Origin: Bradyrhizobium japonicum USDA 6
Lineage (GTDB): Bacteria; Pseudomonadota; Alphaproteobacteria; Rhizobiales; Xanthobacteraceae
Reading direction: 5' to 3'
Length of the DNA: 64,000 nucleotides
NCBI RefSeq assembly: GCF_000284375.1
Contig: NC_017249.1
Span: forward strand, 7,433,001-7,497,000
A program made the position numbers and the translations under genes. The first letter of the stretch is position 1, and each line of letters starts with the position of its first letter. Positions 2,396-29,854 of the stretch are shown in pieces. The notes under the pieces are model-generated. The model was not told the DNA's origin and searched no databases. It worked only from the letters and a program-made list of their open reading frames with translations.

Positions 2396-3931
2396 TTACG
2401 CCAGCGGCACCGCGACGAACCGCGTCGCTTCCGCGCTCTTCACCTGCAACAGCACGCTGTTCTTGCCGGACGATTTGGCCTGCGCCAGCTCGGAACGGAC
2501 GTCGCCGACATTGGCGACGGCCTTGCCGCCGACATTGAGGATGACGTCGCCGGTCTGGATGCCGCGCTGCGCGGCGGGTCCCTGCGGATCGACATCGGTC
2601 ACGACGACGCCCTTCTGGCCCGCGCCCTGGACGTCGCCGGCCGGCGCCAGGCTGAGACCGAGGCGCGGCGTGCCGGTGTTCGGCTGCGCCTTGCCCTCGC
2701 CGGCCTTGGCCTGCCGCTCGTTCGGCAACTCGCCGAGGGCGAGTGTCACCGTCTTGCTCTCGCCTTTGTGGAAGACGTCGAGCTTCACGGAGGTGCCCGG
2801 CGCCAGGGTGGCAATGGTGCGGGCGAGATCGCGGGAGTCCTTGATCGCGGTACCGTTGACGGCGGTGATGACATCGCCAGCCTCGATGCCGGCCTTCGCC
2901 GCAGGGCTGCCGTCCTGCGGGTTGTCGACGATCGCGCCGCGCGCCTCCTTGAGGCCGAGGCTGTCGGCGATCTCGGCGCTCACCGGCTGCACCTGCACAC
3001 CGAGCCAGCCGCGGGTGACCGAGCCCTTGTCCTTCAGCTGCGCGACGACGAGCTTCGCGGTCGAAGCCGGAATGTCGAAGCCGATACCGACCGAACCGCC
3101 GGAGGGTGAGAAGATCGCGGTGTTCACGCCGATCACGTTGCCGTTCATGTCGAAGGCCGGACCGCCGGAATTGCCCTTGTTGATCGGCGCGTCGATCTGG
3201 ATGAAGTCGTCATAGGGACCGTTGCCGATGTCGCGACCGTTGGCCGAGACGATGCCGGCGGTAACGGTGCCGCCGAGGCCGAAGGGATTGCCGACCGCGA
3301 CCACCCAGTCGCCGATCCGCGGCTTCTGGTCGGAGAATTTGACGAACGGAAAGTCCTTCTTGCCATCGACCTTGATCAGCGCGAGATCGGTCTTCGGATC
3401 GGTGCCGACCACCTTCGCGGTGTAGCTCGTGCCGTCGTCCATGGTCACCTGCACCGACTCGGCGTGATCGACGACGTGGTTGTTGGTCACGGCATAGCCG
3501 TCGGCGGAGATGAAGAAGCCGGAACCCTCGCCCGTGATCACCTGGTGGCGCTGGCGCGGCATGCCGTTCATGCCACCAGGGCCGCGGAAGCCGAACTGCC
3601 GCGAAAACTGGTCGAACGGCGAATCCTCGTCCGAATCCATCCGGTTCTGTTGCAGCATCGCGCTCTTGTCATTGTCCCGGTCGATCTTGACCCGCACCGA
3701 GATGACGGCGGGTTTGACCTTGCTGACGAGATCGCCGAAGCCCGGCGGGGTCGCGGCGGCTTCCGCGGCCTGGGCCGGCGCGACGAACGAGTTCAGACCG
3801 AACTGCGACGAAGCGGGAGAGGCAGCCAGCACGGCCACGCCAAGCGCGGCCACGGTGCCCAGCAGCGCAAGCCGGCGCGGCTTCAAGATCTTGCGGGACG
3901 TGGTGGTGTCGGAATTGACGCGGTCGTTCAT
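2396..3931 (-). CDS. degP: Periplasmic Do-like serine endoprotease (DegP/HtrA family)
   Basis: A 511-residue HtrA protease that degrades or refolds misfolded envelope proteins. After an N-terminal membrane/signal segment (LALLGTVAALGVAVLAA), the trypsin-like domain carries the triad: His in TNNHVVDHA, Asp in KTDLALIKV, and Ser in NKGNSGGPAF. Two PDZ domains follow (LGVQVQPVSAEIADSLGL... and LGLSLAPAGD...), giving the usual DegP/DegQ length. The annotated start at 3931 gives the family-like MNDRV N-terminus but has no free Shine-Dalgarno. An ATG at 3979 preceded by AAGGTG would add 16 residues. A perfect inverted repeat occupies the leader between them. A strong terminator follows. Confidence 0.93.
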   Translation of the reverse strand: MNDRVNSDTTTSRKILKPRRLALLGTVAALGVAVLAASPASSQFGLNSFVAPAQAAEAAATPPGFGDLVSKVKPAVISVRVKIDRDNDKSAMLQQNRMDSDEDSPFDQFSRQFGFRGPGGMNGMPRQRHQVITGEGSGFFISADGYAVTNNHVVDHAESVQVTMDDGTSYTAKVVGTDPKTDLALIKVDGKKDFPFVKFSDQKPRIGDWVVAVGNPFGLGGTVTAGIVSANGRDIGNGPYDDFIQIDAPINKGNSGGPAFDMNGNVIGVNTAIFSPSGGSVGIGFDIPASTAKLVVAQLKDKGSVTRGWLGVQVQPVSAEIADSLGLKEARGAIVDNPQDGSPAAKAGIEAGDVITAVNGTAIKDSRDLARTIATLAPGTSVKLDVFHKGESKTVTLALGELPNERQAKAGEGKAQPNTGTPRLGLSLAPAGDVQGAGQKGVVVTDVDPQGPAAQRGIQTGDVILNVGGKAVANVGDVRSELAQAKSSGKNSVLLQVKSAEATRFVAVPLA

Positions 3932-7783: not shown

Positions 7784-10361
<2,578 letters not shown>

Positions 10362-25024: not shown

Positions 25025-25500
25025 ACCTTGCTCGCGGCATCACGAATTAGAATGCAACTGCAACCACGGGTTTTCTCGAGCGAGATTGCCTCGAGGGGAG
25101 CGGTCGCGCGGTCCCCGCGCTTTGGGGCGCTCTCCAAAGGACCCTGCCGACCGATTGCGGAGGGACCGCTACAACTTCACACGCCCGGATAGCGTCACGC
25201 GCCGCACGTCATCACGATCACGAAAACTGCCAAGTTTACCTGTTCCGTTAATTTTTCATTAACCGGGTCCGCGCACCATCGATCCCGTTCTGAGGGGACA
25301 CTGCGTCGCTTCTTGTCTTGTCGCCACGCATCGTCACCACGACGCGACCGTGCGTCAGCATCAAGCGCACGACCCTCACCAATCCCTCCCGCTGGTTTCC
25401 GGCGCGGACTTTGGCCGCCATGGACGCATAGCGGACCATGCCCGGACGAGCCGCTGGCCAACCCGCTCGCGAGTGACCCATCTTCGAGCGGCCTGCACAT
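25025..25500. other. Gene-poor region after the TolB/TPR regulator
   Basis: No convincing gene. It contains a short repeat copy at 25431-25479. A 77-residue minus-strand frame (25248-25481) overlaps the repeat and lacks family resemblance; I did not call it. Confidence 0.5.
25431..25479. repeat. Short dispersed repeat, copy B
   Basis: Matches 23271-23319 in the same orientation; core CCGCTGGCCAACCCG is identical. Confidence 0.6.
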
Positions 25501-25884
25501 TCACCGACAAACCAGTACGGGGGTTTTCGCGTAGGTCAGCACCTTGTTTGTCACACTGCCGATCAGAAGCATGGGAAGTCCGCTGAGCCCATGCGATGAC
25601 ATTACAATGAGATCGCAGCCTTTTTCCTCGGCTGTTGCGATGATGGCTTCATGAGGTGGCACGTTCTCCAGCTGAATTGTCTCGCAGGAAACGCCAGCCT
25701 CCTTGGCCGCATTTGCCGCGCAATCCAACACGCTCGCAAAGTCGCCCGTCACTGCAAGAAGCGAGTCCACAGCGTAGATTACGGAGACCTTGGCTCCAAC
25801 GGATTTCGCCAACGCCAACCCATGCGCAACCCCACGCCCCGCTAGCTTCGACCCATCTGTCGGAATGAGAATATGCCGGTACAT
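25501..25884 (-). CDS. Single-domain universal stress protein, shortened
   Basis: A 127-residue UspA protein. Start MYRHILIPTDGSKLAGRGVA and end SVTNKVLTYAKTPVLVCR are typical. The ATP-loop region reads MSSHGLSGLPMLLIGSVTNK. Most relatives are about 145 residues; here the stretch after IYAVDSLLAVTGDF is shortened before LDCAANAAKEAG, removing part of the segment between strand 2 and helix 2. It may be an internal deletion or a divergent form. It lies in the accessory stretch rich in FixK2-type boxes but has no clear box itself. Confidence 0.85.
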   Translation of the reverse strand: MYRHILIPTDGSKLAGRGVAHGLALAKSVGAKVSVIYAVDSLLAVTGDFASVLDCAANAAKEAGVSCETIQLENVPPHEAIIATAEEKGCDLIVMSSHGLSGLPMLLIGSVTNKVLTYAKTPVLVCR

Positions 25885-26006
25885 GCTTCACCTCCCGATT
25901 GTCTGGACGTATCGCTGAGCCCGTCACATCGGCGTTGTGCGAGCCACCGCGCGGGCGTGTCACCATTACACCGGGCAGAGCGGCGAACCCCGTGCGCTCC
26001 TCGATC

Positions 26007-26093
26007 TCAGAACGAGAACACCACGATTGCCGCGAGCACCGTCGAGCCGATGCCAGACAGCACGATCAGAGTCACAAACAACCGGTCAGCCAC
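26007..26093 (-). CDS. Possible 28-residue single-TM small protein
   Basis: GTG start at 26093 preceded by AGGGTGG at 4-nt spacing. The product is a short polar start (MADR) followed by one hydrophobic helix, LFVTLIVLSGIGSTVLAAIV, then VFSF. Composition and ribosome site favour a true membrane micro-protein. No name can be given. Confidence 0.45.
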   Translation of the reverse strand: MADRLFVTLIVLSGIGSTVLAAIVVFSF

Positions 26094-26203
26094 AACACCA
26101 CCCTACCACTTGCGCGTTTTGCGAGCATACATCCCCTGCGTGAGGCCTGCACTGTCATGAACTGGAACACGGTCGTCAGATCGTGGGGCGGATGTTCCTA
26201 AGT

Positions 26204-26296
26204 AGTGGGCCGCCGATAACTCCCTGCAATTCCCGGCGGCCCCTGTTGGTCACTCCCAATGCCTCTGCCCAATGACAGTAGGCGTGACCGCCCATT
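26204..26296 (-). ncRNA. Predicted FixK2-driven structured RNA or leaderless micro-ORF, copy 1
   Basis: The minus strand has a FixK2 box centred 41.5 bp before a predicted start near 26296 and TATGCT at the -10 position (26309-26304). The RNA would fold into GGTCAC...GTGACC enclosing GCCT-A-CTG/CAG-AGGC, then a strong GGGCCGCCGG / TCGGCGGCCC hairpin. Differences from copy 2 keep the pairing (C-G to U-G and U-G to C-G). An alternative reading is a leaderless 39-residue frame (26295 to 26176) starting MGGHAYCHWAEALGVT. Transcription is inferred, not shown. Confidence 0.5.
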
Positions 26297-26331
26297 GAGG
26301 GCGAGCATACTCACCGAGGGGGACGGGGGGA

Positions 26332-26345
26332 TTGATCTCAATCAA
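26332..26345 (-). promoter_or_regulatory. FixK2/FNR box of repeat copy 1
   Basis: TTGATCTCAATCAA is a near-perfect anaerobox (TTGAT-N4-ATCAA). Its distance to the TATGCT -10 on the minus strand is that of a class II FNR/FixK promoter. The plus side has no comparable -10. Confidence 0.75.
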
Positions 26346-26359
26346 TCGTCGCCGGAGGC

Positions 26360-26587
26360 CCTAGGAAGGCCGTCCGGCGCCCCGGGGCGGCAGGGCTGCA
26401 GAGCTTAGGTTCGCAATTGCTTTAGTTGAGCTTCGATGATGCACCGCTGGCCGCCATGGTGAACCTCCCGATGGTGGGAGGGGCAGAGGCACGCGACGTC
26501 ACGGCAAGCCGCCGAGAATTACGCCAAACCGCCGCGCTGAACTTCGGCCATCGAATGACCAATTGCGCGGGCCCCGCCACCGATCTA
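26360..26587. other. Intergenic stretch, no supported gene
   Basis: Contains a hairpin CCTCCC-GATGGT-GGGAGG near 26466-26483. A plus-strand frame here (26426-26653) has no family resemblance and was not called. Confidence 0.5.
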
Positions 26588-26776
26588 TCAGGTCTGCCTC
26601 TTCACGATTTCAAATCCCTTTGCCTGCAATTCCAGAAGTATGCCCTGTGCTAAGTGCGAGCACTCTTCGGGCTTGATCCAGTGCGGACTTCTCCAATCCG
26701 GGTCGTCTTCCTTTGGGTAACTGGTGAAGGCGGAGCGAATGGCGGCTTCGATCACGTCGATGGGATTGTCCGACAT
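26588..26776 (-). CDS. Small hypothetical protein (MSDNPIDVIE)
   Basis: A 62-residue acidic protein: MSDNPIDVIEAAIRSAF, then YPKEDDPDWRSPHWIKPEE, ending AKGFEIVKRQT. GAGGG lies 6 nt before the ATG at 26776. It looks like a small conserved rhizobial protein of unknown function. A half-site TTGATCTA at 26803-26810 (minus strand) is too close to the start to act as a standard FixK2 promoter for this gene. Confidence 0.6.
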   Translation of the reverse strand: MSDNPIDVIEAAIRSAFTSYPKEDDPDWRSPHWIKPEECSHLAQGILLELQAKGFEIVKRQT

Positions 26777-26895
26777 CTGCATCCCTCACGCATTTGGCGA
26801 AATAGATCAAAATCCCGGGAATTAAAGAACAAGCCCAGCCGGACACTCACCCGGCGGCCCTCTCCGTTCAGAAGAACGTCACCGCCATCATTGGT

Positions 26896-26909
26896 TTGAT
26901 CTAGGTCAA
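26896..26909 (+). promoter_or_regulatory. FixK2/FNR-type box upstream of the Cys-rich protein
   Basis: TTGATCTAGGTCAA fits TTG(A/C)-N6-(T/G)CAA. The centre is 60 bp before the ATG at 26963, so a class II start near 26944 would leave a ~19-nt leader. Confidence 0.65.
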
Positions 26910-29711: not shown

Positions 29712-29804
29712 AGTGGACCGCCGGTAACTCTCTGCAATTCCCGGCGGCCCCTGTCGGTCACTCCCAATGCCTCTGCCCAATGACAGTAGGCGTGACCGCC
29801 CATT
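29712..29804 (-). ncRNA. Predicted FixK2-driven structured RNA or leaderless micro-ORF, copy 2
   Basis: Same design as copy 1: FixK2 box at 29841-29854, TATGCT at 29817-29812, predicted start near 29804. The terminal hairpin is GGGCCGCCGG with CCGGCGGTCC, ten pairs with one G-U. The alternative leaderless frame (29803 to 29678) gives 41 residues sharing the first 31 with copy 1 except three changes, then diverging. The loss of C-terminal similarity and pairing-preserving changes favour RNA over protein, but neither is proven. Confidence 0.5.
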
Positions 29805-29840
29805 GAGGCTCAGCATACCGAGCGAGTATGACGGGTGAAA

Positions 29841-29854
29841 TTGATCTCGATCAA
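29841..29854 (-). promoter_or_regulatory. FixK2/FNR box of repeat copy 2
   Basis: TTGATCTCGATCAA, TTGAT-N4-ATCAA perfect. Position relative to the TATGCT element is the same as in copy 1 plus 1 bp. Confidence 0.75.

Follow-up and report, generated by a model that had tools for sequence, protein, structure and literature searches.

Does a FixK-type promoter placed twice in front of a short, strongly folding stretch of DNA mark a gene for a non-coding RNA, or can it be explained otherwise? The question is raised by two units of about 142 bp on the minus strand of a 64-kb window (the whole stretch of 64,000 nucleotides from Bradyrhizobium japonicum USDA 6 that was analysed), at 26204-26345 (copy 1) and 29712-29854 (copy 2). 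An initial annotation had described them as duplicated FixK2-driven units, each specifying either a structured RNA or a leaderless 39-residue protein.

Layout of the two units in the window

Read 5' to 3' on the minus strand, each unit consists of a FixK/FNR palindrome, a diverged spacer, the hexamer TATGCT, 12 nt and an 85-nt core. The FixK2 consensus is the palindrome TTGA-N6-TCAA, and it is present in perfect form in both copies, at 26332-26345 (TTGATCTCAATCAA / TTGATTGAGATCAA) and at 29841-29854 (TTGATCTCGATCAA / TTGATCGAGATCAA). Within the window the longer pattern TTGATN4ATCAA occurs only as these two boxes (shuffles give 0.04), and the 9.2-Mb genome holds 33 such sites vs 0 for the backward-read pattern, which indicates that the sites are regulatory rather than due to chance. 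FixK control of the two copies, as predicted from sequence, is well founded. The putative -10 element TATGCT (26304-26309 in copy 1, 29812-29817 in copy 2) is identical between the copies, beside a box-to--10 spacer that has accumulated eight mismatches and one gap over about 22 columns. As the centre of the copy 1 box lies at 26338.5, 41.5 nt upstream of 26297, transcription is predicted to start at about 26296-26297, and this class II spacing fits a start at 26297 that was itself predicted from TATGCT. The palindromes, the hexamer at class II distance, the two-stem core and the divergence of the spacer were all found where the initial annotation had placed them; its end for copy 2, 29869, overshoots the box by 15 nt.

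The predicted small RNAs occupy 26207-26297 on the minus strand for copy 1, with the 5' end put at 26296-26297 and the 3' end at or some nucleotides past 26207, and 29715-29805 on the same strand for copy 2, where the fold and the covariance model scores support the assignment. Each would form two hairpins. In P1 (26247-26290 in copy 1, 29755-29798 in copy 2) an outer helix of 7 bp is followed by a bulge of 7 nt on the 3' side (26254-26260, reading AUUGGGA in copy 1; 29762-29768 in copy 2) and an inner arm, and P2 (26207-26242 and 29715-29750), assigned from the fold and the family alignment, is a G+C-rich hairpin that may act as a weak terminator. No real U-run follows P2, leaving the 3' end uncertain; T content after P2 across the family is 26-38% at +4 to +12 vs 10-29% at +13 to +25. 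Compared with shuffled sequences, the 94-nt RNAs fold with z values of -4.3 (copy 1) and -6.0 (copy 2), none of 200 shuffles doing as well in either case. As 118-nt RNAs the values were -3.9 (0 of 200 shuffles as good) and -3.1 (1 of 200), and at this length copy 2 has a minimum-energy fold that departs in part.

The cores differ at four of 85 positions, one of them in the P2 loop. Two further differences are neutral to pairing (U-G/C-G and G-C/G-U) and the fourth yields C-G in copy 2 vs a C-A mismatch in copy 1. With covariance models that were built with these very copies, copy 1 scored 104.4 bits (model R1) and 80.6 bits (model R2), and copy 2 scored 109.7 and 84.2 bits. They are the only strong copies in the genome, which also contains a third, divergent family member at 396,894-396,984 (39.3 bits, E 2.6e-4).

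Fold, covariation and extent of the RNA family

Searches by blastn of 265 genomes of the genus returned only three believable relatives, which, when aligned, kept the fold with compensatory changes; a further match (L006) was rejected as a chance hit inside a coding region. A covariance model of four sequences (R1) found matches in 72 of the 265 genomes at E<=1, and a second model of 52 matches (R2) found 109 matches in 75 of the 265 at E<=1e-3, with one to five copies per genome. Beyond the genus, and under Infernal's stricter filters, R2 at E<=0.01 detected the family in 43 of 391 genomes and 6 of 47 genera of the taxonomic family, and a third model (R3) in 11 of 397 genomes of the order, all from the window's own genus (1 of 141 genera). 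An exact pattern search of named genomes returned 22 stretches, of which 18, all titled Bradyrhizobium, gave a full-length strong match to R3 and two of the remainder a weak one; stretches from Hylemonella and Paenibacillus gave none and were taken as chance. As far as searched, the family thus appears confined to Bradyrhizobium and a few genera of the same family.

Membership has a lower limit of confidence: antisense matches over true sites reached up to 33.5 bits, and members below about 35 bits therefore rest also on synteny or conserved features. Borderline matches of 26-27.7 bits (L079 and L150, in G000 and G027, position 1090-1178) contain AUUGAAA and a P2-like hairpin, and the L079-type match is identical in G000, G027, G025 and G087. 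We take G000 to be USDA 6 and G027 to be USDA 110. In assembling the alignments, L005 was omitted from A4 because MAFFT had shifted it, two of the 54 rows of A5 were dropped before A6 (the 54-match pair count below still includes both), and 13 of 108 rows, L079 among them, were dropped by the E cut before A9, from whose sources L205, a likely chance match, was also excluded. Both L079 and L205 were kept in the 96-unit sets used for promoters, T content, lengths and open reading frames. A 130-unit set excludes L080, L081 and L150 and includes matches weaker than E 1e-3.

In the 54 matches (52 distinct), double-sided changes were seen at 24 of 26 base pairs and 94.3% of cells were paired. The 95-row alignment A9 gave double-sided changes at 25 of 26 pairs and 92.8% paired cells, vs 30-47% in slid controls, and its ten top column pairs by mutual information multiplied by paired fraction were all pairs of the model. 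As both alignments were fitted to the covariance model, the A9 pair counts and ranking are biased towards it, although the ranking is less model-dependent than the counts. Less dependent too was a structure-blind alignment by MAFFT of 65 units (those of the 96 with 70-90 nt, minus the TTASGTTAA class, L079 and L205, columns with more than 60% gaps being removed), from which RNAalifold recovered the same two hairpins at -58 kcal/mol vs a mean of -8.5 for column shuffles (z -21, covariation bonus included). When the three relatives L003, L004 and L005 were folded one at a time with their flanks, the minimum-energy folds departed in part from the consensus, and the fold of L005 did not outdo shuffles (z -0.7, 45/200). 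The bulge, A-U-U-[GU]-[GC]-A-A or AUUKSAA, is the most conserved unpaired stretch of the family (A 97%, U 98%, U 100%, G/U, G/C, A 88%, A 97%).

Judged from the sequences, these results demonstrate an RNA that forms two hairpins and conserves a 7-nt bulge, that is maintained by compensatory change and that has promoter elements directly upstream. The genome search with covariance analysis, which the initial annotation had proposed as a check, lends strong support to its structured-RNA branch across a large family. The annotation had also named homologues without box and without covariation as grounds for rejecting the proposal; the covariation proved very strong, and the FixK box is absent from most homologues.

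At the gathering score, Rfam release 15 gave no family match to the units, with one tRNA as the only hit in the window, and for 26 further loci two tRNAs and nothing else; when 26000-26420 was scanned permissively, the two matches returned were both below threshold (E 1 and 4.2) and on the opposite strand. No description of the family was found in the accessible text of the literature on Bradyrhizobium sRNAs, FixK-linked sRNAs and RNA motifs, and of a review, mostly non-subscription papers and with the BjrC sRNAs outside the comparison. Within that scope this is a real RNA family that is absent from Rfam 15 and for which no description was found.

A second subfamily is distinguished by its longer inner arm and a bulge of the AUUUCAA type. 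It includes the divergent USDA 6 member (L224) mentioned above and a USDA 110 locus at 452,405-452,494 (L149), with GGTTAGGTTAA upstream of the latter; in both genomes its neighbours are a ROK-family gene on one side and an alpha/beta hydrolase gene on the other. Long alignable flanks are shared by most of the 12 such loci that were compared.

Promoter classes and a proposed role in trans

FixK boxes in the family were seen in the two window copies and one relative (L058); a FixK score of at least 9 was found in 3 of 96 units vs 1.0 expected, which is no clear family-wide excess. From these boxes we infer oxygen control of the window copies and L058. Other units have other promoters. The ECF promoter form is GGAAC-N16-CGTT in the accessible text of PMC7083833, and with a score of at least 7/9 against GGAAC-N16/17-CGTT and the -35 element at -37 to -32, an ECF-type promoter was assigned to 22 of 96 non-redundant units vs 1.7% of 4494 control windows, an excess whose binomial P is too small because the 96 units partly share ancestry. 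The -35 element fell at -35 or -34 in 20 of the 22, and by this fixed distance, without fitting, transcription would begin near the first RNA base. Many of these promoters read GAAAC...CGTA; neither the sigma factor behind such GAAAC-type promoters nor the RNA itself was identified in the accessible parts of PMC4842269, PMC3420878 and PMC6515984. At seven loci (L039, L048, L049, L019, L026, L193 and L194) a GAAAC/GTTTC inverted repeat surrounds the whole unit.

The Pho box consists of CTGTCAT repeats (PMC3131613, accessible text). A Pho-box score of at least 12/18 was reached by 6 of 96 units vs 0.4 expected, four units having a Pho-like box at -40 to -42. A subset of units carries TTASGTTAA upstream, and 39 of the 96 fit no promoter class. 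On a weakly resolved RNA tree (82 columns, with 64 of its 92 inner branches open), the starred branches required the label to change at least twice for FixK, at least twice for Pho and at least three times for ECF, which suggests promoter re-wiring.

The reading we favour, with a probability of roughly 0.7, is that of a family of trans-acting stress sRNAs re-wired to different regulators, FixK being the one at the window copies. Each copy would be a self-contained gene for a non-coding RNA of about 90-100 nt, which FixK2 (or another FixK/FNR-type protein) would turn on at low oxygen, and similar RNAs elsewhere would be coupled to ECF-type promoters, Pho-like boxes and other promoters. Action in trans, reached by exclusion, is the most likely mode. 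The AUUKSAA bulge may be where a common partner, an mRNA or a protein, makes contact, and with such a common site different stresses would call one output. We counted against this reading the synteny of the second subfamily beside fixed genes. A special case of it, in which the RNA binds or titrates a protein rather than base-pairing, is possible if doubtful: a fixed 7-nt bulge amid freely varying helices resembles a protein site more than a seed, but the bulge is variable at its centre (G/U, G/C) and no protein partner is known.

Unit boundaries, neighbouring genes and known small RNAs

In 458 of 484 matching unit pairs the similarity was confined to about -66 to +105, that is to promoter plus RNA; the other 26 pairs gave longer matches and came from orthologous places or larger duplications. 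Tandem copies in G064 and G090 lie 2.8 kb apart and share sequence up to about +490. A speculative and rather unlikely proposal is that a promoter-plus-RNA cassette of about 160 bp spreads in Bradyrhizobium genomes and has repeatedly been captured by FixK, ECF sigma factors and PhoB-like regulators, with one effector acting through the AUUKSAA bulge on a single common protein or ligand.

The scattered places with little synteny, the fairly sharp ends and the paired copies (3.5 kb apart in the window, together with the tandem pairs in G064 and G090) would also suit a short DNA element of the REP or MITE kind, mobile or repetitive, whose palindromes merely resemble RNA structure. So would GTTTC at most 30 nt after P2, a possible remnant of terminal inverted repeats, which occurs in 7 of 11 GAAAC-promoter units vs 1 of the 74 units lacking an ECF-type promoter. 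We nevertheless consider this improbable, given the low copy number, the asymmetric unpaired bulge among the best conserved parts, promoter elements at a fixed distance from the RNA start and the fact that some related species share long orthologous flanks; moreover, blastn against phage and plasmid records gave no match and the exact core was not found in viral contigs. Copy number and the lack of a transposase-type family recurring at a fixed place likewise speak against a REP or transposon end.

That the RNA instead acts in cis, as the riboswitch or attenuator leader of a downstream gene, could be envisaged at two loci. A universal stress protein gene (Pfam Usp, 25501-25884, minus strand) follows copy 1 on the same strand by about 320 nt, and at L045 a Crp-family gene on the strand of the RNA starts 26 nt beyond it. 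However, no protein family held a constant position next to the RNA in at least four of 40 loci plus the window (by crude ORF calls), 104 nearby ORFs were spread over 58 different Pfam families, similarity mostly stops by about +105, and Usp was absent from those ORFs around copy 2 that were run against Pfam. A leader function is hence quite improbable.

The commonest family among the 104 ORFs was the Crp-type domain, at L045:7358-7972, L049:6584-7297, L051:3549-4214, L056:6637-7530 and L057:8553-9446, a raw count of five in which L045, L049 and L051 were confirmed singly, L056 and L057 were assigned by kinship to the L051 protein, and the last two loci are orthologous places. Mobile-element domains comprised two integrases and one resolvase. 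Around copy 1, the stretch 25500-25917 with the Usp gene recurs elsewhere in the same genome and in other genomes; a possible 28-residue membrane peptide ORF (VADRLFVTLIVLSGIGSTVLAAIVVFSF, 26007-26093, minus strand) lies between copy 1 and the Usp gene, with a further TATGCT at 26124-26129 upstream of it. Window positions 26551-26900 (about 350 bp) have a 96% identical repeat at genome 2,523,088-2,523,436.

The leaderless 39-residue protein (MGGHAYCHWAEALGVT...) of the initial annotation has an ATG a few nucleotides from the predicted start in both copies but is very improbable, since the ATG or frame differs in near relatives, unit lengths modulo 3 (30/32/34 of 96) reveal no reading frame, a start codon near +1 with an ORF of at least 25 aa occurs in 30 of 96 units vs 26% of 958 control positions, and the stems covary.

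Returning to the proposed trans-acting sRNA family, we compared it with known sRNAs. BjsR7a and BjsR7b of Bradyrhizobium USDA 110 are visible on Northern blots and have mapped starts (PMC5082802, accessible text). With R2 they scored 20.6 and 20.0 bits in G027, the best among the BjsR loci tested (next 13.3 bits), values near noise as chance or antisense matches reach 22-28 bits in larger sets; the match starts 1 nt after the mapped BjsR7b start and 16 nt before that of BjsR7a. BjsR7 resembles the family in an outer CCGGG/CCCGG stem, an AUUGAAA segment and a GGGGCCGC hairpin, but differs in an extra UUUCA/UGAAA pairing possibility and in its upstream sequence. Its 27 homologue loci reached at most 25.5 bits with R3, again near noise, and as a lead, BjsR7 may be a distant relative. 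On contig C39 of G069 a family member (3848-3925) and a BjsR7 homologue (10021-10066) lie about 6 kb apart.

Three other comparisons are by description alone. FnrS and PhrS are FNR/ANR-activated sRNAs and, like the window copies, are short sRNAs behind an FNR-family box. The CcsR 'cuckoo' RNAs of Rhodobacter and relatives are stress sRNAs that occur as paralogues and keep a conserved unpaired motif, CCUCCUCCC, a pattern that the family shares with a different motif, AUUKSAA. GsrN, a Caulobacter stress sRNA, is ECF-dependent and stands under an ECF general-stress promoter, as some family members may do. The accessible text of PMC5869019 deals with this Caulobacter stress sRNA.

With this analysis an agriculturally central genus gains a structured RNA family that covaries very strongly and is missing from Rfam 15, and two non-coding FixK targets are predicted for the oxygen response. 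Were the cassette proposal true, the units would represent a plug-in stress output of an undescribed kind. The related RNAs under different stress-type promoters form a natural set, through which the role of stress sRNAs in slow-growing rhizobia, and the recruitment of ready-made RNA outputs by regulons, become testable.
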